NCBI RefSeq assembly: GCF_006715145.1
Contig: NZ_VFMR01000001.1
Location: 2,170,001-2,234,000 of the forward strand
Direction of reading: 5' to 3'
Length of the DNA stretch: 64,000 nucleotides
Source of the DNA: Microbacterium sp. SLBN-146
GTDB taxonomy: Bacteria; Actinomycetota; Actinomycetes; Actinomycetales; Microbacteriaceae
The translations under genes were made by a program, and so were the position numbers. How positions within the stretch are numbered: the stretch's first letter is position 1; every line of letters starts with the position of its first letter. Positions 27,753 through 40,288 of the stretch are shown here, one piece after another. The notes below the pieces were generated by a model. It ran no database searches, was not told the DNA's origin, and saw nothing but the letters and a program-made list of their open reading frames with translations.

Positions 27753-27824
27753 GCCTCTGTAGCTCAGTGGAAGAGCCACTCCGTCCTAAGGAGCGGGTCG
27801 GGAGTTCGAATCTCTCCAGGGGCA
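27753..27824 (+). tRNA. tRNA-Arg (anticodon CCT)
   Basis: 72 nt with a full cloverleaf: acceptor stem GCCTCTG/CAGGGGC, D arm TAGCTCAGTGGAAGAGC, anticodon loop GTCCTAA with anticodon CCT, and T arm GGGAG-TTCGAAT-CTCTC. CCA is not encoded. A T-rich stretch (CTTTTTTG) follows at 27831. It decodes AGG, a rare arginine codon in this genome. The first gene of the accessory island begins 223 bp after its 3' end, so it is the likely insertion site. Confidence 0.95.
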
Positions 27825-28047
27825 CCGTCTCTTTTTTGCTATGACCAGGGATTTATCTACTCTGTGGCGCTGCCGTCATGTCTCCCGGCACGCGGTTCGT
27901 CGTCTAAATGCCAGCCTCTTCAGTTCATGTGTTGGGTACGAGGTATCTCATGACGACGGCTCTGCGGCTACGCGCGCCCGTGTATCGCGGTTGCATCGAT
28001 GTCGCCGGTCGACATCATGGATTCATTCACCAGGTAACGTCAACGGG

Positions 28048-29004
28048 GTGATCGTGGACTTCCCAATGGACCTCCCAGCGGATCCCGCCCGTGACGAGGT
28101 GGTAATCGACCTGAGGCGCCGCGACCCCGACGGGCAAGTCACGGGCCAAGTGCTTCGAGACACCTTCGATCAGCTCTACGACGGCGTGCGGACCCAGCGA
28201 TATCGGTGGGACCAGCTCTTCAAGACAGAGAAGACCCACTTCGGAACGCTCGCCGAGATCAACCTTCAGCGGCAGTTTGAGTACGACGATGGCAGCAAAC
28301 TCGATTTCAGCATTGCCGGACACGAAGTCGACGCCAAGTACAGTCAGACGCCGGGTGGATGGATGCTCCCGCCTGAGGCGATCGATGAGCTTTGCATGGT
28401 GATTACTGCGAGTGACCAGGCTTCGAAGTTTTCGGTAGGAGTCGTACGCGCCTCTGCGAGCCTACTGAACTCGGGCCAGAACCGAGACGCTAAACGGACG
28501 CTCTCAGCGGCCGGTCGAGCTTCGATCGTATGGCTTGCGCGACATGCGGAACTGCCTCCGAACACCCTTCTTCATATGACAGATGAGGACCTTGAGGCTG
28601 TCATGGGGGCGGGAGGTGGTACGGCACGCGTCTCGGAGCTGTTTCGCCGCACAATTGGCAGGGTGGTTGGACGGGCAGCGATCGCTACGGTCGCTGCCCA
28701 ACTTGATGTGACGAGGCGGGTGCGTGGTGGTGAAAGCGGCTCACGAGACCCTCTTGCAAGGGAAGGTATTGTCATTCTGGGTGGAGCCTACGACTGGCAG
28801 CGCCAGGCTGCTCGCAATCTCGGCCTTCCTATCCCGCGCCGCACTGAGTACGTCGCGGGGTACGTCCGTCCCGCTCCTCAGGGATGGCGTGAGTTGGTCG
28901 CCCATGGTCCTTCCGGACTTGAAGTCGTCTCAGCTACGGCGGCAACGCGCGCGCCGTTCCCGTTGGCGTGGTACGGCGAGCGGCGGCACGGACCGCTGAC
29001 CTGA
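28048..29004 (+). CDS. NaeI-family type II restriction endonuclease
   Basis: 318 residues from GTG 28048; NaeI is 317. With this start the numbering matches NaeI exactly: DPDG at 26-29, LRDT at 36-39, and the catalytic residues Glu70, Asp86, Asp95 and Lys97 (AEINL; DFSIAG; VDAK). The ligase-like stretch with Leu43 (DQLYDG) is kept; in NaeI, changing this Leu to Lys gives topoisomerase/recombinase activity. The C-terminal half carries the Topo/CAP-type DNA-binding domain (GGGTARVSELFRRTIGRVVGRA). NaeI is a type IIE enzyme that cuts GCCGGC after binding two sites. The methyltransferase gene follows 53 bp downstream. Confidence 0.93.
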   Translation: MIVDFPMDLPADPARDEVVIDLRRRDPDGQVTGQVLRDTFDQLYDGVRTQRYRWDQLFKTEKTHFGTLAEINLQRQFEYDDGSKLDFSIAGHEVDAKYSQTPGGWMLPPEAIDELCMVITASDQASKFSVGVVRASASLLNSGQNRDAKRTLSAAGRASIVWLARHAELPPNTLLHMTDEDLEAVMGAGGGTARVSELFRRTIGRVVGRAAIATVAAQLDVTRRVRGGESGSRDPLAREGIVILGGAYDWQRQAARNLGLPIPRRTEYVAGYVRPAPQGWRELVAHGPSGLEVVSATAATRAPFPLAWYGERRHGPLT

Positions 29005-29057
29005 GAGAACTCGGCGCGGGCGCTCCCAATGTCTGTGGCTCCTGAGAAACTGGTCTA

Positions 29058-30374
29058 ATGATGGACGGACTCGGGCCCGAAGAGCGGCTGACAGCGGTGG
29101 AGATTTGCGCTGGGGCTGGCGGGCAGAGTCTTGGGCTCCACCTCGCCGGCTTCAGACACACGTTGGCTGTTGAGATCGATCGAGACGCCGCGGCGACTCT
29201 GGAGCGTAACTTGTCCCGCCTCGCCGAGAAGGAGGGGCATGAACCACCTCTGGTGGCAGTCGGAGATGTGGCCGACTCTTCGGTCTGGGATCCGCAGAGC
29301 TACACCGGTGTATCGCTGCTAGCGGGCGGTGTGCCCTGTCCGCCGTTCTCGATAGCGGGCAGGCAGCTTGGCTCGTCCGACGAGCGCGATCTATTTGCTT
29401 GGGCAGTCGAAGTCGCGGGCAAGATGAATCCAGACGCTGTGCTTCTCGAGAACGTACGCGGGCTATCCATGCCGCGGTTCGCGGGTTATAGACAGGCGGT
29501 GCTCGACCGTTTCGCGGAACTCGGCTACCGGGCTGACTGGCGCCTTCTTGAGGCCAAGGACTTCGGAGTGCCCCAGCTCCGCCCCCGCTTCATCTTGGTT
29601 GCTCTTCGGGAGGAGTTCGCACCCTACTTTGCATGGCCGGAGCCGATGCCGACTGTTCAGACGGTGGGCGCTGCCCTATACGACCTGATGGCGGCAAACG
29701 GATGGCAGGGTGCGGAAGCGTGGGCAAAGAGAGCGAACCGCGTTGCGCCCACGGTGGTCGGCGGTTCCAAGAAGCATGGTGGTCCCGATCTCGGCCCCAC
29801 ACGTGCCAAGCGCGAGTGGCGATCGTTAGGTGTCGACGGTTTGGGCATTGCTGACGCTGCGCCGGGACCAGACTCGCCTGCGGATCTCGTCCCCAAACTG
29901 ACGAATCAGATGGTTGCACGGATCCAAGGGTGGGCAGGTCCCGCCTACGACTGGGATTTCGGAGACGGCAGAGGCCGAAAGACGACGACTTATCGACAGA
30001 TTGGGAATGCCTTCCCGCCACCTATGGCGAGGGCGGTCGGCCTTGCTATCGCCTCTGCCCTCCGGAAGGAGGGACACCCAGCCGGTGATCACGGAACTCG
30101 CAGCCAGTACAGTGATGAGATTTATAGAGCCATGCGGGAGCACGGCGGGTATGTCTCACTGGCGGGTCTTCGAAGAGCGCTCGCCGGAACTTTGACCGAA
30201 GAGGAGATCGAACGTCGGATTGAGTTTCTGCAGCAGGACTTCGAGATCGACGTCCGCCAGCGTGGTGGTCTCCTCACCTATCGGCTCGGCAACTGGCGCG
30301 CCTTCCGTGGCCAGGATGACCACGCACGTCACGAGGCATTTGCGACAGATCGCCTCCGCTCGAAGATCAGCTGA
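29058..30374 (+). CDS. DNA (cytosine-5) methyltransferase, partner of the NaeI enzyme
   Basis: 438 residues. All C5-MTase motifs are visible: I (EICAGAGGQSLGL), IV with the catalytic Cys (GGVPCPPFSIAG), VI (LLENVRGL), VIII (DFGVPQLRPR), the target-recognition region around ANRVAPTVVGGSKKHGG, and X (YRQIGNAFPPPMA). It should protect the host from the endonuclease by methylating its target, presumably GCCGGC. A further 100 residues after motif X form a C-terminal extension containing helices (EEEIERRIEFLQQDF). The frame is intact and the gene probably forms an operon with the endonuclease. Its target-recognition region is shared with the degenerate MTase at 33292. Confidence 0.93.
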   Translation: MMDGLGPEERLTAVEICAGAGGQSLGLHLAGFRHTLAVEIDRDAAATLERNLSRLAEKEGHEPPLVAVGDVADSSVWDPQSYTGVSLLAGGVPCPPFSIAGRQLGSSDERDLFAWAVEVAGKMNPDAVLLENVRGLSMPRFAGYRQAVLDRFAELGYRADWRLLEAKDFGVPQLRPRFILVALREEFAPYFAWPEPMPTVQTVGAALYDLMAANGWQGAEAWAKRANRVAPTVVGGSKKHGGPDLGPTRAKREWRSLGVDGLGIADAAPGPDSPADLVPKLTNQMVARIQGWAGPAYDWDFGDGRGRKTTTYRQIGNAFPPPMARAVGLAIASALRKEGHPAGDHGTRSQYSDEIYRAMREHGGYVSLAGLRRALAGTLTEEEIERRIEFLQQDFEIDVRQRGGLLTYRLGNWRAFRGQDDHARHEAFATDRLRSKIS

Positions 30375-30485
30375 AGAGCCATTGGGTGGCTGCTCGCGAC
30401 AGGGGGCTGTGGAAGAGGGGACTGCTGCACGGATAGTGACATCTGATCTGGCTTGCCCGAGGGGTGGGCCTGGAAGGTTGTTGCT

Positions 30486-31412
30486 GTGCCCAAGCCCTAT
30501 CCGAGCGAGTTCCGTGACGGCGTGGTGCGCGTCGCTCAGAACCGCGAGTCCGGAGTGACGATCTAGCAGATCGCGAGAGACTTCGGTGTCCACCCGATGA
30601 CCCTGCAGAAGTGGTTGCAGCGCTCAAAAGTCGAGGATGGTTCCGTGTCCGGCGTTGCGGGCACAGAGTCGGCGGAGAATCGCGAGCTGCGCAAGCGTGT
30701 CCGGCTGCTCGAGCAAGAGAGCGAGGTCCTTCGTCGTGCGGCGGCGTATCCGTCGCAGGCGAACCTGCCGGAACGAGGTTCTACCCGCTCGTGATGGAGC
30801 TCGCCGCCGCAGGGATCCCTGTGACGGTGACGTGTCGGGTCCTCAAGCTCTCTCGCCAGCCCTACTACCGATGGATGGCTGCTCCCATCACCACGAGCGA
30901 GGTGGTGTAGGCGTATCGCGCGAACGCGTTGTTCGACGCGCACAAGGATGACCCCGAGTTCGGGCATCGACTGCTTGCAGACGAGGCCGCGGAGGCGGGT
31001 GAGGCGATGGCGGATCGGACCGCGTGGCGGATCGGATCAACCAACGGCTGGTTCAGCGCTTTCGGAAAGCCCAAGCGCGGCGGGGGCTACCGGCCCGGAC
31101 CCGCGGTCCATGACCATCTCTGCGCCCTTACCGACGAGGACGGCAGAACGCGACATGTGTTCGCGGCCGAGGCGCCGAACGAGCTCTGACTCACCGACAT
31201 CACGGAGCACGATACGAGTGAATGGAAGCTCTATCTCTGGTGATCAAGGACGTGTTGTCCGGTCGGATCGTGGGCTACTCGGTTGATTCGAGAATGAAGT
31301 CCAGATTGGCCGTCCAAGCGCTCGAGAACGCCGACGCCAGCCCCGACTCGGCGGATTGACGCCCATCGAGTTCGAGGTCATCATGAACACGACCGTCGCA
31401 CTGGCGGCGTGA
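30486..31412 (+). pseudogene. IS3-family transposase remnant (orfA and orfB)
   Basis: The start, MPKPYPSEFRDGVVRVAQ, and the helix-turn-helix segment QIARDFGVHPMTLQKWL are an IS3 orfA; the later part PVTVTCRVLKLSRQPYYRW and the integrase-core pieces LLADEAAEAG and GGYRPGPAVHDHLC are orfB. A TAG at 30564-30566 interrupts orfA, a TAG near 30908 interrupts orfB, and a TGA near 31187 and later frame changes follow. The 3' end fades into island DNA near 31412. I saw no convincing terminal inverted repeats. The element is dead. It lies between the restriction-modification genes and the NTase operon. Confidence 0.85.
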
Positions 31413-31671
31413 CTAGAATCTGTCACCTATCCGTGCAGCAGTCCCATCGGAGGTTATCTGCTAGGCGCCGATGGTTGGGGTGACTTCGCGGCGCGATCCT
31501 TGGGGTGGGGCTCGAAGTCTATTCGGCTGTCAGGCAGCGGAGGTTGGTGAAGTATGCGCACTCGGCAACCGAGCTCTCGGTGCATGCCGAGGTCTCTCAT
31601 GCATGGCATGCTGAAACTCGCGCACCGCGGTCCTGTCTTGTTCGATATGCTCGCCGAGATTGGGGGCAGCG

Positions 31672-32727
31672 ATGGGGAACGGTCTGAGTGATGCGTTAGC
31701 GCGTGCCGGGTGGGAGGCACTTGAATTGCCGAATCTGGAGCGCTCGTTCACTCGAAGTCAGTCGTGCATCGCAAAGGCTCGTGATCATCTCGCTAGCGAG
31801 CTTGTTGATGCTGATCCACGTATTGATGTCGTTGTCTTTGGGTCACTCGCACGATACGAAATGACGGAGGCGTCGGATCTCGACTGGCTGGTCGTCGTGC
31901 ATGCATTGCCGGACAAGCGCACATCAGTTGAGGCCGCGCTCGCCGCTGCCGATTCGCTGCGAGGTGTGATGAGTGGCGACGGCGGTGAGATTCGTGAGCA
32001 CGGATCGAGCGGCGTCTTCGGGCAGATGGTGTCGGCGGTCGAACTGGTCGAGGTGATCGGACTCCAGGCAGACACGAATCACTCGCACACACGACGCATC
32101 TTGCTGATCGAGGAGTCGGTCTCTCTCCGAGACGAAGTGCTGCACCGCAACCTTCTAACAACGACGTTCCAAAGATACCTAGACGCACACCCGCCGACGT
32201 CGACTGGTGTCCCTCGATTCCTTCTGAACGACCTGCTTCGGTACTGGCGCACGGTGACGGTGGACTACCAGGCGAAGAGTCCCGCACAGTCCATGTACTC
32301 GCTCCGCTACTTGAAACTCATCGTCTCGCGAAAGCTCACATTCGCCGCATCCTTGCTCCCGCTGCTCGTGCTCGCCCTTCAGGAGCCTCGACCAGACGTG
32401 GAGGAGCTTGCCGAGAAGCTGTACGAGTCGTTTCGCCAACCCGCCCTTGTCAGACTCGTTGACTCTCTCGCCATTTTGAGCAAGATGTGCGCTGAGGTCG
32501 CTGATCCCGCCCAGCAAGTCTTGCGGATCGCAGAAGAGTTCAACGGTTTACTCGGTGACGCCGATTGGAGAGCGCGTATCAACGAGGCGAGCCGCCGTCC
32601 GAACCCTAAAGATCAGAATGAGTTCTCAGCCGCTCGGGCGCTCGGGCGCCTCCTGCAGGATAGTCTTGAGCGCATCTTCTTCGCTGAGCCGCTGCTGCCG
32701 TTGACGCGCAGCCTGCTACTGTTCTAG
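31672..32727 (+). CDS. Nucleotidyltransferase-fold protein (first gene of NTase-HIT-pseudoMTase operon)
   Basis: 351 residues. The N-terminal domain has the polymerase-beta-type nucleotidyltransferase signature: Gly57-Ser58 followed by Asp69-Leu70-Asp71 (FGSLARYEMTEASDLDW). It is not the CD-NTase GTxxxxxxDxD form. After about residue 150 a helical region (LLNDLLRYWRTVTVDYQAK) follows, resembling C-terminal substrate domains of other minimal NTases. It should transfer a nucleotide to an unknown acceptor. ATG 31672 has GGGGGCAGC upstream. The HIT gene begins 24 bp later. The codon use is less GC-biased than in the core genome. Function unknown. Confidence 0.75.
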   Translation: MGNGLSDALARAGWEALELPNLERSFTRSQSCIAKARDHLASELVDADPRIDVVVFGSLARYEMTEASDLDWLVVVHALPDKRTSVEAALAAADSLRGVMSGDGGEIREHGSSGVFGQMVSAVELVEVIGLQADTNHSHTRRILLIEESVSLRDEVLHRNLLTTTFQRYLDAHPPTSTGVPRFLLNDLLRYWRTVTVDYQAKSPAQSMYSLRYLKLIVSRKLTFAASLLPLLVLALQEPRPDVEELAEKLYESFRQPALVRLVDSLAILSKMCAEVADPAQQVLRIAEEFNGLLGDADWRARINEASRRPNPKDQNEFSAARALGRLLQDSLERIFFAEPLLPLTRSLLLF

Positions 32728-32751
32728 AATATATGTACGAATGAGGGTGAC

Positions 32752-33288
32752 ATGACACTGACGCCAGACGCCACGAGCTGCAAGACATGCGGCTTCGGCC
32801 TGTGGATCCCAATCCCCGGAGGCGACTTGAGCTCGTCTTTCATGGGGTTGTACAGTGATGCTCGCTTCCCTGGCCGTTGCATCGTGAGCCTAAACGAACA
32901 CGCCGAGCACCTCGACGATCTTCCCAAAGACACTGTTTCGTCCTTCATGATCAACGTAGCGATGGCCTCAAAGGCCTTACGGATCGCGACAGACGCGCCT
33001 CGCATCAACGTTGCGATCCTGGGCAACCAGGAGGGGCACGTCCACGCACACCTCATTCCTCGATATCCCGATTCCGAGCCGCTACCCAATAAGGCCCCCT
33101 GGGAGGACCCTCGACCTCGAGGTGCTCTTGACGAAGGGGACGAGAGGCGCTTGGTCAATCTGATCGCACGCGCACTGACGCAGGTCAAAGCACGGTCCAA
33201 GGACGAGGCGGGAGCCTCGCGAATGCCCCGCCGCTCGGGGTCACGTGCGCTGCCGCTTCTCTCCTCAGGCGCTGAGTCTCTCGTCTAG
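32752..33288 (+). CDS. HIT-family nucleotide hydrolase/transferase
   Basis: 178 residues. A CxxC pair (Cys10, Cys13) starts the protein, and the HIT motif HVHAHL (His96, His98, His100) forms the catalytic triad of histidines. HIT enzymes hydrolyse or transfer from phosphoanhydride bonds of nucleotides, for example Ap4A or adenylated proteins. The C-terminal 30 residues are basic and low-complexity. Its partner upstream is a nucleotidyltransferase, so the pair could attach and remove nucleotides, but this is speculation. The next gene starts three bases after its stop, so the three genes form an operon. Confidence 0.85.
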   Translation: MTLTPDATSCKTCGFGLWIPIPGGDLSSSFMGLYSDARFPGRCIVSLNEHAEHLDDLPKDTVSSFMINVAMASKALRIATDAPRINVAILGNQEGHVHAHLIPRYPDSEPLPNKAPWEDPRPRGALDEGDERRLVNLIARALTQVKARSKDEAGASRMPRRSGSRALPLLSSGAESLV

Positions 33289-33291
33289 TAG

Positions 33292-34236
33292 ATGACGACG
33301 CTGCGTGCCGCAGATCTCCTTGTCGGAGGTGGGGGCATGGCACTGGGCCTCGAAAGGGGCGGATTCGAATTGGCGTACGCGATCGATGAGGATCCCGATG
33401 CAGTTCGAACGATCCGCTCAAACCGTGAGCACTGGCAAGTCGAGATGCTGGATGTCGGCGAGCTGTCGGCGAAGCAAGTTTCAGGTCTTGACCTAATTTC
33501 CGCGGGGTTGCCGTCGCCGCAACGCCCCAGTGAGTCACGCGATGCGCGTGGCGGACGCGACGCGAACGACGCCGTGATTTCTTGCGTCAACTTGGTGTCC
33601 GAGGCCCAGCCTAGAGCTATCCTTTTCGAAAGCACACGGTCACTGTTGTACGAGGTGCATAGACCTCTCTTAACCTGGATCACACGTCAGCTTGAGGAGA
33701 GTGGGTATCAACTCGAACTGCGCATGCTGGAGGCTTCAGACTTTGGGATTGCTCAACGTCGACCCCGCGTCTACCTTGTTGCGTTCCAGCGAGATGCGTT
33801 CAAGTCGTTTGAGTGGCCCTACCCTTCGTTCGAGCACGTCACTCTTGGGGAGACTCTTCACGAGGAGATGTCAGCCTTGGGATGGAGGGGCGCTGATAAG
33901 TGGGCTACCAATGCGAATCGCGTAGCACCGACAATCGTCGGGGGATCCCGACGACACGGCGGCGCAGACCTGGGGCCCTCCGGGACGAAGAGTGCTTGGT
34001 GGCGGCTGGGTATTGACCCGACCGCAATTGCCGATGCATCCCCCGGGCCGGATGACCCGATGGAACTCGCTCCTCGACTAACTCTCCGAATGATGGCGAA
34101 GCTTCAAGGTCTGGAGAACTGGCCGCTACACGGTTCGAAGAGTCATCAAGCTCGACTGATCGCCTCTGCAACTCCCCCAGCGGTCGCGGAGGGCATCGCA
34201 CTCTCCATCGCTGGAGCACTTCGCACTGGTGCTTGA
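33292..34236 (+). CDS. Degenerate DNA (cytosine-5) methyltransferase lacking catalytic Cys
   Basis: 314 residues, homologous to the MTase at 29058 over the whole catalytic and recognition region. Motif IV reads AGLPSPQRPS, with Ser where the catalytic Cys (PCPP) should be. Motif VI reads LFESTRSL, keeping the Glu but losing Asn-Val. Motif X reads IASATPPAVA and lacks the Asn. Motif VIII (DFGIAQRRPR) and the recognition region ANRVAPTIVGGSRRHGGADLGP are conserved. It should bind DNA, possibly the same site, but cannot methylate by the normal mechanism. The frame is open with few gaps, so it may be a selected non-catalytic protein rather than a pseudogene. Confidence 0.85.
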   Translation: MTTLRAADLLVGGGGMALGLERGGFELAYAIDEDPDAVRTIRSNREHWQVEMLDVGELSAKQVSGLDLISAGLPSPQRPSESRDARGGRDANDAVISCVNLVSEAQPRAILFESTRSLLYEVHRPLLTWITRQLEESGYQLELRMLEASDFGIAQRRPRVYLVAFQRDAFKSFEWPYPSFEHVTLGETLHEEMSALGWRGADKWATNANRVAPTIVGGSRRHGGADLGPSGTKSAWWRLGIDPTAIADASPGPDDPMELAPRLTLRMMAKLQGLENWPLHGSKSHQARLIASATPPAVAEGIALSIAGALRTGA

Positions 34237-34756
34237 AGACTGCATGGGCAGTCGGACCAGAGGCCGCAACGAGATCACCGCACGCCGAGGTCCTGCTTCA
34301 TCGCCGCCGCGACCGGGCTTGCGCTCATCGTTCGCACGACCGCAGAGATCCCACGATGACATGGTACCGGTCCGCCCTTCGGCCCTGACGGCGAAATCGT
34401 CGCCGATCGCGATCGTGCGTCAGGATTGTTCCGCCAGACGGTGCAGGTCGGCCTCGTTTTCACACGTCGCAATGGCCTACTTTTCGAGCGTCGTCGACAG
34501 TGGACTCGGCCACAGTCTTGGCGGCGCGGAAACGAGGCGTTCGCCATGGATGGGTGCATCGGATTCAAGACCGTGGTCGAGAATGAGTCACCCCCCGAGC
34601 CGAGGGCGAGGTGACTCAACCGTCACGACAAGGTGGAGCGCAAGCACTCCGCCAACTGGCCCAGGCCAGCCACCTCTGAGGCTTGAAGGCCGCTCAGACC
34701 GAGACTTACCAGTTCCGAAGGCTCGCCCACAATCGCGGCGCCGTTATCTTGATGAC
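34237..34756. other. 520-bp region with no confident gene
   Basis: Between the pseudo-MTase and the SLATT-like gene. Plus-strand and minus-strand frames of around 60-115 codons exist, but none has a recognisable motif, a good start, or consistent codon use. It may hold decayed genes and the promoter for 34757. Confidence 0.6.
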
Positions 34757-35335
34757 ATGCAGCTTCAACACGATCCCGAGCCTTCGTCGGTGACCAGCAT
34801 CTCCAAGTGGAAACGAGTACTTGCGTCTCTCGCGATCATCCCTGATCCGACAGTCCCGGTGGCACGCGACCTCCGAACAGATCTCTCGCCGCTAGAACTA
34901 GCTAACGTCATTCGACAACAGTTCTATAAGGACAGGAACTACCTCCGATTGAGGCGCAGACGCTGGATCATTGGGGCGATCGCAATTCGGCTGCTTGCTC
35001 TTGGATTGTCAGGGGCGGCGACAATCCTTCTAGGGCTCTCTAACCTGTCAGGTGCCGCTGCGTGGGGCTTTGCATTGTCGGCGCTCGTGACATCGATCAC
35101 GGCGCTGGAGCCATTTTTCAACTTTCGGTCTCGATGGGTGTCGGCGGATGAGGCACTGGCGCGTTGGCATAGTGCCGAGGAGGCATTGACTCTCTACGTG
35201 GCAACACGAGCCGAGGACGAGCTTTCGACGCCTGAGGTAGTCGCCTTTGATGGAATGAGACAGGATGAGTGGTCGAGATTCACTCAAGATTGGCTCGCTG
35301 ACCGTCGCAGCGCGGGTCCTGGACCGCACTCCTGA
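34757..35335 (+). CDS. Two-helix SLATT-like membrane protein
   Basis: 192 residues. A cytoplasmic N-terminal part (about 1-65) is followed by a basic cluster (LRLRRRRW), two transmembrane helices (about 70-93 and 97-117), and a helical cytoplasmic part with ADEALARWHSAEEALTLYVATR. This layout is that of the SLATT (SMODS/SLOG-associating 2TM effector) families, which are thought to form membrane pores in nucleotide-activated defence systems. I cannot see a partner CD-NTase next to it. The assignment rests on architecture, not a diagnostic motif. Confidence 0.6.
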   Translation: MQLQHDPEPSSVTSISKWKRVLASLAIIPDPTVPVARDLRTDLSPLELANVIRQQFYKDRNYLRLRRRRWIIGAIAIRLLALGLSGAATILLGLSNLSGAAAWGFALSALVTSITALEPFFNFRSRWVSADEALARWHSAEEALTLYVATRAEDELSTPEVVAFDGMRQDEWSRFTQDWLADRRSAGPGPHS

Positions 35336-36009
35336 GCACGCCGCATCGCAATTGAGGCACGAGGAGCGCCAAGTCACCTATGCACGCACGACGACGCGGG
35401 TCGGAAGAGTCTGTTCGACGACCCATGACGGGGAGCAGGGCACCTGTTGCCGGGGCGAGCGGGGCGGCGGGAGAGGCTATGGACCGGCAGGTACGGATTG
35501 TGGACCCCTGTCGACGAGGGCGCCTTCGACGAGCTCGTCGGGAAGGATTCCTAGGAGTGCAGAATCATCGGGGACGCGCCGACACCTGCATCAGGCGGGT
35601 ACGTGGCAGCGAGGCTGCCGCGATGCGGAGAGCCACCTACGGACTTCTTCGTCCAGGCCGGCTGGGCCCTACTGCGAGCGATGAAAGTGCGTGAGTGCGC
35701 CGCTGTGGTCACTGCAGCGCTCAACGGGATCATCGAGCTCCACCGACGCCTCGGCCGCGGCGACCGCAATCGCCAGAACTACCGACTCCGCATGCTCCTC
35801 GTCGCGGACAGCCTCACCGGTGACCCCCCGCCGGATGTCTGAAGAGCCAGCATACGTAGAGTAGAACAGGTTCCTCGCGCGGCTGAGCTTCACGTCCTCC
35901 ACGCGTCCGATGGTTCTGCCGTTGAGTCGCACTGGCGGCAGGAGTTCCGCCGCGACATCTGGGTGCCTGAAGGCAGAGTAAGAGGGTCCTCTATCGCTAG
36001 TCTCAGCAG
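35336..36009. other. 674-bp region with no confident gene
   Basis: Overlapping frames exist. One of about 70 codons (from about 35630 to 35842) contains DFFVQAGWALLRAMKVRECAAVV and ends with a stop. It has no recognisable domain and no good upstream start, and could be a fragment. I cannot support a gene. Confidence 0.55.
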
Positions 36010-36534
36010 ATGGAGTGGGGAAGTCTGGCCGACTGGTTTGCTGCCATAGGCACGGTGGGAGCACTGTTCGCGACTCTAAGTCTGTTCGTGCACTCGCAGC
36101 GAAGCGAGGCTCGTCGCGTCGGGCAGGAACTAAGCCTGACAGCAGAGGGTCTGTACGACGAGGATGCGTTCTCGCTGGAGAAACGCATCATCTTCAAGAT
36201 GCGGTTCCGAGTTTACAACTCCGGATCAGCGCCCATACATGACGCACGCATCCTTGCCTACGAAGACGGCAAGACACTGAGCGCTCACGCACTGTCGGTC
36301 GGTGGTGAGCCGATAGAGCCTCAGAGGAGTTTCGTCTTTATATGGCCCGTGGAGAGCACCCTCGTGATGGACCGTATGTACATTCATCACACTGACCGGA
36401 CCGGTCGCGAGTGGGTTCGCAACGTGCACTCCGGCGAGGTTCTCAAGCGAAGTGAGGCGAAGGAAGTCTTGAAGGCAGTCCCTTCCCTAACCAGCTACTC
36501 TTTCGAGCGCGAGGGTGGCGGCGCGGACCTGTGA
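36010..36534 (+). CDS. Small single-helix membrane protein of the island
   Basis: 174 residues. One N-terminal transmembrane helix (about 6-28, LADWFAAIGTVGALFATLSLFV) and a soluble domain with beta-rich character (FKMRFRVYNSGSAPIHDARIL, RSFVFIWPVES). The layout is like many phage-defence or conflict membrane proteins with an N-terminal anchor, but there is no diagnostic motif. The start ATG lies 14 bp after a CTCAGCAGATGG region with no strong Shine-Dalgarno sequence. Function unknown. The dead ISL3 element begins just downstream on the other strand. Confidence 0.6.
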   Translation: MEWGSLADWFAAIGTVGALFATLSLFVHSQRSEARRVGQELSLTAEGLYDEDAFSLEKRIIFKMRFRVYNSGSAPIHDARILAYEDGKTLSAHALSVGGEPIEPQRSFVFIWPVESTLVMDRMYIHHTDRTGREWVRNVHSGEVLKRSEAKEVLKAVPSLTSYSFEREGGGADL

Positions 36535-36540
36535 TGAGAC

Positions 36541-37640
36541 TCATCGCATTTGAGGGTGTAGCCGGAGTTTGAATCCTCCGGCTTCGAGCAGTGATCGAGT
36601 GATGTAGTTCTTCGGGTTCCGGAACCCCAAGGCCGAGCCGCGGAGGTGCTGAGGTGTCTGTTGATGGCCTTCGTTGGTCTGTTCGAGGTGCGGGGGTGAT
36701 CGTACAATGCCAGGACGTCGGTGGCAGGACGGGTGAGCGTGCGGCTGAGTTTGCGGAGTTTGACGAGCAGGGCCGGGATGCTGCTGGCGAGCGAGTCGAT
36801 CACGGACTGCATGACGAGCTCCCCAGTTCCGGTCGGGTTGCAGGTAGGCGGTCCATCATCCGCTGGTAGATGCCCCAGGTCGCCTCGACCTCGCCGTACT
36901 CCTTGTCCGCGAACAGCGCTTCAGCCGAGCCTGCTGTTTCTCGTGAGCAGGCTTCCGCCGGTGTGGAGGGTGCGTCGGGCGTTGTAGCGGGGGTCGTCTT
37001 TCCGGCCCGCCGGCCGAAGGTGTCACGCTGAACCCGGCACTCGTCGAGCGCGTCGCTGACCAGCCTCACGGCGTGGAAGGGGTCTATCACCGTCACCGTG
37101 TCTGGTAGTTCCTCCGCGGTCGCGGTCTCCAAGCCGAACCCGTCCATCGCGACGACCTCCGGTGCGTCGCGCGAAGCTTGGGGGACGCTCGACGAGCCAG
37201 GTCTTGAACACCCCTTCGAGCGCCCCTCGACCATGTCCAGCAGCCGCGATGGGCTCGTCTTCTCGCGGATCGGGGTGAGATCGACTATCGCGGCTCCGAA
37301 TGTCGTGTGGCGCCAGACATGCTCGTCGACACCGAGCACCCGAACGCCAGCGAACCGGGCAGGGTCACCGATCAGAAGCCGACGGCCCTCACCGAGAGTC
37401 GTTGTTCGCGGTGTGCCAGGACTCTCCGCGGCCGGCGGCGACAGGAGAAACGGTGAGGTGGTCGATGACGAGAGCGTCCAGCGCCCACCGCGGCCCGCCG
37501 CGCGACAACTTCGCCTTTGGCTCCGCCACCGCGGTCGAGTCCTGCTGCCAGAGCCGACCGCAGCCGGAGCAGGTGAACCGGCGGATCCGATGCAGCTCGG
37601 GACTCTGGAGGTCTCGATGCAGAACGTCTTGTAGCGGCAC
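36541..37640 (-). pseudogene. ISL3-family transposase remnant
   Basis: Reverse-strand fragments in different frames match an ISL3 transposase in order: the zinc-finger part (RFTCSGCGRLWQQDSTAVAE, near 37570), the catalytic core (LGVDEHVWRHTTFG; RLLDMVEGRSK; VVAMDGFGLETATAEELP), ATWGIYQRMM, and the C-terminus ending at TGA 36541 (RLHPQMR in the third frame). Frameshifts and short deletions break it at several points, for example in the FKTWLVERP segment and near 36810. It is not active. I did not find clear terminal inverted repeats. Confidence 0.85.
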
Positions 37641-37660
37641 AGGCCGAGGTCTGGCGTGCA

Positions 37661-38014
37661 GCGCGAAAGGGGGAGGCGGCGATGGCGACCGATCTCTTAG
37701 CCTGGGGCGCCGAGCGCGAGCCGCGGGATCGGGATGTACAGCTGCTCTGCCACGAGGAGTTCTGAATGGGCAGACGCTTCGGCGCGTCTCGTGGGCTGTG
37801 TCGGCGCGGGTTCAGGCCGCGCTCTCAGAATCTCTTGCGTGTTCCCCTCGGAGTCTCAGTGCTTACCGACTCGGTCGGAGTGCCGAGTGCCGCCATTCAA
37901 CCGATTGTCCAGCCCGTTCTCCGGCGACCGTCGGGACGAACGTCTGAGGAGCGTGACGACGGTGAGCCACGGGAATAGTCGGATACGCCTGCGCCTATCC
38001 GATATCGTCGTCGC
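37661..38014. other. 354-bp region with no confident gene
   Basis: Between the ISL3 remnant and the SIR2 gene. No frame has a recognisable domain or a good start. The CGGATACGC / CCTATCCG inverted sequence near 37981-38000 may belong to the SIR2 promoter region. Confidence 0.5.
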
Positions 38015-39712
38015 ATGATCTCACTCCCCGATGACCTGGTGACGCTCGCTGCTGAACGCCGGCTTATCCCATTCGTCGGCGCGGGTTTTTCTGCATCTTT
38101 GGGCCTTCCATCCTGGGAGAGACTGCTCGAGCAGGTCTGTGAGCATACTGATGGTGTCGTGAGCTTTGAGGAGCTGAAAGAGGCCACGAATGGGGACTAC
38201 CTTCAGATTGCTGAGTATCTATATCTGCGACACGACAGGCAGATCGGGCCAATCAGGCACCAAATCGAGACCAGTTTCGCGAGCTCTGCGGCAGATCCGA
38301 CTAGGTCGGGAGCGCACATCGAGCTTGTCAACTTGGACGCAGGGCAGATTTACACGACCAACTATGACGACATGATCGAGCGGTTGTTCCGATCTCTTGG
38401 CAAATCCGTGACCCCGGTCGTGCTTCCAAAAGATGTTGCTCTCGCAGATCCAGACCGAACTCAGGTCGTGAAATATCACGGCGATCTCAAGCATGAGAGA
38501 ACGCTCGTGCTCACGGAGTCGGCCTACTACAAGCGGCTTGATTTTGAGTCTCCGATGGATCTGAAGTTTCGATCCGACCTTCTGGGGAAGTCCGTGCTGT
38601 TCATGGGCTACAGCTTCCGAGATGTCAATATCCGCATCATTTGGTTCAAACTCATGGAGATGATGCGCGATGTACCTGAGGCTGACCGTAGGCCATCGTA
38701 CATAGTGCGCTTCGAATCCAACCCCGCTCTGGAGGCACTCTACGCCGCGGTTGGCTTGAAGACCATCGTCCTCAAACCCGACGGAAAATCACCCACTGAC
38801 CGGGAGCGTAGCGACCTACTTGGAGCATTCTTGCTTGAGTTATCGCTGAGGGCTGGGCGCGAGCCTAGTCGAACTAGCGAAGGGACGAGGTACGTATCGA
38901 CAGCGCTCCTTACCGCGGTTTCTCGTCTGACCAGGCGAGTCGGGGACTTGTATCCACCTGTTGGTGGGATTAGATACCGGTCGCCCATTTTCCGCGACGA
39001 CCCCCGTATTGAGCGGCTCCTAACAGCCGAGGTCCCCGACGGACTCCACAGAGATTGGGAGAAGCACACGTCTGATCTTCTTCCTGCGCTAGGAGTGACC
39101 GCCGACGTACTCGCGGTACTTCAACGGGTCCAGAATCCCGATGCGCTAGCGGCCTACGTTGTGCGAGTCCTAGGCTTCAGCGGAGACCCCGAGGCTCGCG
39201 GCGACAAACTGAAGCTGCTGGCCGCGGATGTCCCATGGGACCGTGTATGGAAGGGCAAGATTTCTCTCACCGAAGCGAACGAACTGCTCGACTCGCTCTT
39301 GCGAGAAGTCACGTACCAGGCCACGCGCGCCGCCGATGAGGACATAGCCTACTTGGTCGACCTGGCCGCGCGGATGTCCAGAGGGAAGCTGCTGGACCCC
39401 GAGTCGGAACCTGGCGTCGTGGACGCGAAGGAGACGATCGAGCGTGCGGCCGCTCTGCTAACGCTCGCAACGGAGATTTACCCGTCCATCGCCACGATGA
39501 AGGTCACGGACGGACCTCCTGACCTTGCACAGCTGCTTGACGATATCGCAAAACGGCATGCCAACTTCGAACCTGTGGAGCTAGACACCGGCGTTCTGGG
39601 CCCCGCGATCGCGGGGCGCATCGTAGGAAATCGCCCGGGCGCCAATCGACAACCGCGTCCAGTCTCACGCGCGACCACTCCCGTGCCTCGCACGGTGAAG
39701 CGGCAGCCTTGA
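38015..39712 (+). CDS. SIR2-domain defence protein
   Basis: 565 residues. The N-terminal SIR2-like domain (about 1-260) contains the NAD-binding GAGFS (22-26), YTTNYDD (from 113) and the catalytic His155 in KYHGDL. No zinc-binding CxxC pairs are present, which separates it from classic sirtuins and matches the SIR2-like NADases that act in bacterial anti-phage systems. The C-terminal 300 residues are helical, with no clear domain. It would deplete NAD on phage sensing, but the trigger is unknown. It stands alone with its own leader (37661-38014). Confidence 0.8.
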   Translation: MISLPDDLVTLAAERRLIPFVGAGFSASLGLPSWERLLEQVCEHTDGVVSFEELKEATNGDYLQIAEYLYLRHDRQIGPIRHQIETSFASSAADPTRSGAHIELVNLDAGQIYTTNYDDMIERLFRSLGKSVTPVVLPKDVALADPDRTQVVKYHGDLKHERTLVLTESAYYKRLDFESPMDLKFRSDLLGKSVLFMGYSFRDVNIRIIWFKLMEMMRDVPEADRRPSYIVRFESNPALEALYAAVGLKTIVLKPDGKSPTDRERSDLLGAFLLELSLRAGREPSRTSEGTRYVSTALLTAVSRLTRRVGDLYPPVGGIRYRSPIFRDDPRIERLLTAEVPDGLHRDWEKHTSDLLPALGVTADVLAVLQRVQNPDALAAYVVRVLGFSGDPEARGDKLKLLAADVPWDRVWKGKISLTEANELLDSLLREVTYQATRAADEDIAYLVDLAARMSRGKLLDPESEPGVVDAKETIERAAALLTLATEIYPSIATMKVTDGPPDLAQLLDDIAKRHANFEPVELDTGVLGPAIAGRIVGNRPGANRQPRPVSRATTPVPRTVKRQP

Positions 39713-39910
39713 CTGGCAAAGTCAGCTACCTCCAGTAAAGAAGACACCTACTCGGCTTTCGAGTGCGGCGCGATGCAGCGGACGATTCGGACCCCCGTGC
39801 GACCCCGCACTTCTTGGAGGTCTGCACCTAGCCGCTTGCACCCGCCTCGCCCTAGCGTGGACCCCAACATCCCCGTACGACTGCGCCATAGGGAGCGCCG
39901 CGGTTACCGG

Positions 39911-40288
39911 ATGGATCTCGCCGAGACGCCCGCGAACGACCGGGAAGAGTATCTCGACTACCTCACGACGAACTGCGCTGTGCCGTTCCGCGCCAACACG
40001 GCCGACCGGGATCGCCAGCAGACGTTCGTGCACATGCACCGCGAGTTCGGGCGCATGACGGTGTTCGAGAACACGTACTCCAACTACACCGGGGTGCGTC
40101 CCAAGGGAGTAGCGCGGTCGAGCGACGAGAAGATGATCACGATCGGGATGCCGCTGGGCCCGATGGACGTCGCGCAGGGCGACGCCCAAGTGCGGGGGAG
40201 CGCGCGCTCGATGGTCGCGTTCTGGGGGTCTCGCACCCTACGGCGCCGAAGTGGGCGGCGCGATCTACTACAGCCCGCCCTTTATCGA
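39911..40288 (+). pseudogene. Truncated AraC-type regulator fragment
   Basis: From ATG 39911 the frame reads DREEYLDYLTTNCAVPFR, FVHMHREFGRMTVFENTY and DEKMITIGMPLGPMDV, similar to the N-terminal sensor domain of AraC-family activators. No AraC helix-turn-helix domain follows; the frame loses family similarity around 40200 and runs antisense to the next gene. The residues AEVGGAIYYSPPFID (in another frame, ending at TAG 40291) are a second unrelated fragment. This piece marks the right-hand junction of the island. Confidence 0.55.

Follow-up and report, generated by a model that had tools for sequence, protein, structure and literature searches.

A compact nucleotidyltransferase, HIT hydrolase and pseudo-methyltransferase operon beside NaeI-type restriction-modification genes in two genera of Microbacteriaceae

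The window, i.e. the whole 64,000-nucleotide stretch of Microbacterium sp. SLBN-146 DNA under analysis, contains an accessory stretch that starts directly after a tRNA-Arg gene (27753-27826) and has a GC content of approximately 0.60, versus approximately 0.68 in its surroundings. A search of the window for a copy of the tRNA-Arg end that would mark an attachment repeat gave none. Located on the plus strand of the accessory stretch are a NaeI-type restriction endonuclease (REase) gene (28066..29004; Pfam NaeI, E 1.7e-99) and the C5-cytosine methyltransferase (MTase) gene of the same system (29058..30374), the product of which looks active, its GVPCPP, ENV and GNAFPP motifs being intact. Together they form an adjacent NaeI-type restriction-modification (RM) pair. 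Between the RM genes and a group of three further plus-strand genes lies an IS3-like remnant (30417..31445) bounded by terminal inverted repeats. The first encodes a nucleotidyltransferase (NTase) of the PDC-M70A family (31672..32727; 351 aa), the second a HIT-family hydrolase with a CxxC near its N-terminus and an intact HVHAHL triad (32752..33288; 178 aa), and the third a C5-cytosine MTase pseudoenzyme, a paralogue of the RM enzyme that retains a NaeI/NgoMIV-type target-recognition domain (33292..34236; 314 aa). The gaps between the three are 24 and 3 bp, and both coordinates and gaps agree with those given in an earlier sequence-only reading of the locus. The trio is a tight operon beside an NaeI-type RM system. 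Downstream of it, still within the accessory stretch, a gene for a SIR2-domain protein (38015-39712; Pfam SIR2_2, 6.8e-24; PADLOC ThsA-like, 1.1e-27) is probably a further defence gene. GCCGGC, the recognition sequence of NaeI and NgoMIV, occurs 5 times in the accessory stretch (27827-40000), a density of 0.41 per kb that is below the 1.02 per kb of the entire window.

A second genus of the Microbacteriaceae has these three genes in the same order, so the arrangement goes beyond chance. In Agreia bicolorata VKM Ac-1804 the genes follow one another as MTase, NaeI-type REase (Pfam NaeI, 7e-29), NTase, HIT and pseudo-MTase. Here the genes overlap, NTase and HIT by 1 bp and HIT and pseudo-MTase by 4 bp. 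Identities between window and Agreia proteins are about 45-46% for the NTase, 47% for the HIT protein and 41% for the pseudo-MTase. Compared at the protein level, the two neighbourhoods have in common only the trio, the NaeI REase and the MTase, in addition to one IS end. The right end of an IS3-like family common to both loci is 87% identical over 111 bp (window 30417-31445; L011:17-127). In the window the element lies between RM genes and trio, in Agreia directly before the RM genes, and it may have contributed to the movement of the block.

Searches with the NTase of 395 genomes from the class, 396 from the order, 400 from the family and 149 from the same genus, with one genome per species and a sensitivity limited to fairly close relatives, recovered only the window's own genome and Agreia, the Agreia orthologue being the sole one elsewhere among the 400 family genomes. 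A search with the HIT protein of 227 class genomes recovered its own genome only, and a genome-wide scan for the HIT motif gave no third trio. Likewise, a single-protein NTase scan of a genome contig collection gave no match, viral contigs scanned with HIT or trio-type NTase patterns yielded none, and none of the phage records encodes the NTase. Distribution is sporadic (one of 149 species of the genus, one of 8 Agreia genomes), and the trio is rare, with two instances in two genera. Whether the arrangement would be limited to one strain had been set as a test beforehand, and the ordered trio with overlapping genes in a second genus answers it; of the several independent co-occurrences on which the sequence-only reading would have relied for support, two were found.

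The product of the third gene matches Pfam DNA_methylase (E 1.1e-35) and shares 38% identity with the active-looking MTase of the window, from which it differs at the catalytic motifs, carrying GLPSPQ for GVPCPP, EST for ENV and ASATPP for GNAFPP. The motif IV cysteine and the motif X GN are intact in all 22 real MTases of the family that were compared. In both pseudo-MTases the cysteine is replaced by serine and the GN is lost, being AS in the window and AG in Agreia; motif VI reads EST and INV, respectively. The recognition domain displays a different pattern. Near-invariant residues are kept there at 24 of 29 positions in the window and 27 of 29 in Agreia, versus 46 of 89 and 57 of 89 outside it (Fisher p 0.004 and 0.002), and its signature, VAPTIVGGS..HGGADLGP, is as in the real MTase. 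In leave-one-out controls the real MTases changed at most 4 residues in the recognition domain and at most 14 in the rest. Judged from these residues, the third protein is a pseudoenzyme in which catalysis is lost and the target-recognition domain kept, in agreement with its initial description as a non-catalytic C5-MTase homologue. Because methylation is lost while the recognition domain is retained, the protein is expected to bind DNA at the kind of site used by the NaeI MTase, and the earlier proposal that it recognises DNA appears well founded. The site itself would be GCCGGC, by analogy with NaeI and NgoMIV and from similarity to the gonococcal MTase locus. A structure predicted for the pseudo-MTase was poor, hence it was not used.

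Eight residues are common to both pseudo-MTases and occur in no real MTase, whereas any pairing of a pseudo-MTase with a real one gives at most four; this supports a single origin of the two. Such uniquely common residues were used as the measure of kinship because the MTase tree is blurred at this point: both proteins form long branches, and the tree places them neither as sisters nor otherwise.

Both trios adjoin NaeI-type RM systems, and by sequence the RM partners themselves are not orthologous. The two REases are 28% identical, while that of Agreia is 62% identical to the REase of a third genome; in the MTase tree the window enzyme groups with those of loci L052 and L055 (100/100) and the Agreia enzyme with that of L062 (94/90). 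Since the partners differ in this way, the trio appears tied to the NaeI type of RM and not to one inherited RM copy. The dependence does not run in the opposite direction. NaeI genes are present in 25 of 395 class genomes, and the 24 other loci, inspected over 7 kb around (less at contig ends), contained no NTase, no HIT gene and no trio, thus the RM system does not need the trio. The window is like known NaeI/NgoMIV Type II RM systems (GCCGGC) in its adjacent REase and active-looking MTase and in the MTase recognition signature of its pseudoenzyme, and unlike them in that they are normally without an NTase, a HIT protein or a dead second MTase (0/24 other loci). Among the other NaeI loci, that at L053:8196-11007 encodes a pair of paralogous MTases, both active-looking and oppositely oriented, of which one differs slightly in its recognition region.

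The NTase matches Pfam NTP_transf_2 (E 1.6e-5) through G57-S58...D69-x-D71. In PADLOC, residues 17-339 of its 351 give a full-length match to PDC-M70A (E 2.8e-57), and the Agreia NTase matches the same family at E 2e-44. It had been taken at first for a minimal nucleotidyltransferase. That reading was dropped, the full-length match and a helical C-terminal domain of approximately 180 residues both contradicting it. Across seven NTase relatives G57, S58, D69, D71 and D134 are invariant, and the helical part conserves N186-D187-x2-R190-x2-R193. From these intact catalytic motifs the enzyme is apparently active.

In an AlphaFold2 model of moderate confidence (pLDDT 69, pTM 0.75) the NTase and helical domains are arranged as in GlnE and DrrA, which are protein adenylyltransferases. 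The closest fold is DrrA (Z 14.1, 277 residues aligned), followed by the two halves of GlnE (Z 12.2 and 11.8); scores then fall to a second, shorter DrrA entry (Z 8.4), MNT antitoxins (Z 7.2), aminoglycoside nucleotidyltransferases (Z 7.1) and Hailong HalB (Z 4.8). Sequence profiles link the NTase to GlnE weakly, including in a comparison with the GlnE of the host, whose genome encodes its own separate copy. We infer that the NTase could be a protein AMPylase of the DrrA/GlnE kind, and hold the assignment at that level because the confidence of the model is moderate and the profile link to GlnE weak. The likeness to GlnE and to the DrrA/SidM-SidD pair extends over both domains of the fold, and a GlnE family match is missing. 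With HEPN-MNT (HepT-MntA) systems the NTase has in common its MNT type, with GS...DxD; it differs from them in having no HEPN partner (the neighbours match HIT and DNA_methylase in Pfam), in carrying a helical domain of its own and in a full-length fold that is modelled as nearer to DrrA and GlnE.

The HIT assignment of the second protein, made from its HVHAHL motif, was borne out by a domain match (Pfam, E 1e-5), and the motif is kept in the window and Agreia orthologues alike. With its histidine triad intact the hydrolase is apparently active. A PADLOC search gave no match for this protein, and the relatives found through its sequence are uncharacterised HIT hydrolases from bacteria. One relative, 46% identical, is encoded on the Mycobacterium avium plasmid pS2b (L012:5568-7411), where its translation is coupled to that of a HerA-like ATPase whose C-terminus is a winged helix. 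The function proposed here for the HIT protein of the trio, that of a deAMPylase, would be new for the HIT fold, which to our knowledge has no known protein deAMPylase.

Additional information about the NTase can be gained from the surroundings of other PDC-M70A genes. On two rhizobial plasmids (L004, L006) the NTase is followed by the TIM barrel protein PDC-M70B, and in Rhizobium sp. BT04 (L007) it occurs with a histidine phosphatase. The E. coli plasmid pISHS7_5 (L005:211-1706), 4.5 kb in size and present in 1 of 5426 E. coli genomes, encodes an HD protein, a PDC-M70A NTase and little else. An inovirus-like viral contig (L008:4819-7407), the sole viral match and one recovered twice by broader NTase alignments, carries an HD protein, a PDC-M70A NTase and a histidine phosphatase in a row, possibly a phage-borne version of the NTase-hydrolase pair. 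Judged from these neighbourhoods, PDC-M70A NTases recurrently adjoin putative hydrolases, the folds of which vary. The opposite chemistries ascribed to the first two enzymes of the trio in the sequence-only reading are therefore plausible, the modelled NTase resembling AMPylases and its relatives being paired with putative hydrolases. Known AMPylases and deAMPylases are likewise encoded by adjacent genes, as with SidM/DrrA and its deAMPylase SidD, and the deAMPylases have several unrelated folds (PMC12409994); the same review names no protein deAMPylase of the HIT fold. The position of the hydrolase next to the NTase in the window resembles that of SidD next to SidM.

The window fits the PADLOC candidate PDC-M70 in its full-length PDC-M70A match and in a second gene directly after it. 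It departs from that candidate in lacking PDC-M70B, in place of which stand the HIT and pseudo-MTase genes, and in adjoining an NaeI-type RM system. The trio had been put forward as an undescribed system; this does not hold for the NTase family, which is on record as a defence candidate, nor is the RM system out of the ordinary, yet the combination appears to be new. The papers searched contained nothing that describes PDC-M70 or an NTase-HIT-dead-MTase combination, and the libraries searched had no entry for NTase, HIT and dead MTase beside an RM system.

These data tentatively favour a rare module linked to RM, in which a nucleotidylation switch, probably reversible, is gated by the pseudo-MTase as it reads sites of the GCCGGC type. 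The pseudo-MTase would act as a DNA reader, binding the kind of site used by the RM MTase without methylating it and probably preferring unmodified sites. The NTase would move a nucleotide, the likeliest reaction being the transfer of AMP to a protein, as GlnE and DrrA do. The HIT protein would oppose it as a hydrolase, either taking the nucleotide off or disposing of the product. Binding of the reader to unmodified sites could then set the balance of NTase and HIT, and with it how far a target is nucleotidylated. Candidate targets are the RM enzymes, giving restriction control, or a host protein, giving an arrest of growth as a back-up in the presence of unmodified DNA; a benefit to the cell and a role in defence are likewise presumed. 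In a more specific form, possible and distinctly more doubtful, the trio would be an immune or control switch coupled to RM: the dead MTase would sense unmodified sites and gate reversible protein AMPylation, carried out by a stand-alone AMPylase of the GlnE/DrrA kind and a HIT-fold deAMPylase.

Among other explanations, the one that survives best, itself unlikely, is similar to a toxin-antitoxin system. Here the NTase would nucleotidylate a host protein or RNA, the HIT protein would be the antidote, and the pseudo-MTase, derived from an RM methylase, would serve mainly as autoregulator or repressor, linkage to RM reflecting the clustering of defence islands. The operon is compact and coupled, pairs of an NTase and an antidote-like hydrolase recur on plasmids and phage-like elements, and MntA-type sequences match the NTase domain weakly. 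However, GCCGGC is absent from the 385 bp upstream of the window trio and from the 404-bp intergenic region before that of Agreia, therefore simple autoregulation through this site is disfavoured, and the twofold occurrence of a dead methylase that matches the adjacent RM system in specificity class better fits a link to that system.

A second messenger is a poorer prospect. The NTase would make a nucleotide signal in the style of CBASS or Hailong, the HIT protein would degrade it and the pseudo-MTase would be sensor or effector. HIT enzymes hydrolyse dinucleotides, the NTase belongs to the appropriate superfamily, and HalB is among the fold matches of the model, yet far below DrrA (Z 4.8 against 14.1); moreover, the conserved unit lacks any effector gene, whether for a nuclease, a transmembrane protein or another type. 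Hitchhiking, in which a duplicated RM methylase decays beside an unrelated NTase-HIT pair and the block is moved by an IS, is improbable to a similar degree. It would account for the sporadic occurrence and for the same IS family flanking both loci. It is already disfavoured by the preservation of three open frames, order and coupling in two genera at approximately 40-46% identity, by decay limited to the catalytic part with the recognition domain conserved, and by RM partners that are not orthologous. Chemistry at DNA ends, in which NTase and HIT protein act on nucleic-acid termini and the pseudo-MTase guides them to REase-cut sites, is very improbable: HIT proteins include aprataxin and NaeI breaks fall at what would be the recognition site of the pseudo-MTase, but the modelled NTase resembles protein AMPylases and not ligases or polymerases, and the sequence relatives of the HIT protein are uncharacterised bacterial hydrolases.

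If the RM-linked nucleotidylation switch is right, RM would do more than cut, a dead methylase reporting unmodified sites to the switch, and the recognition of self and non-self DNA would be joined to post-translational control. The uncharacterised PDC-M70A NTases would gain a likely and testable chemistry, in which protein AMPylation is reversed by a neighbouring enzyme whose fold varies. Should the narrower AMPylation reading also be true, it would add a new fold for deAMPylases and a signalling arm that the methylation status of DNA drives.
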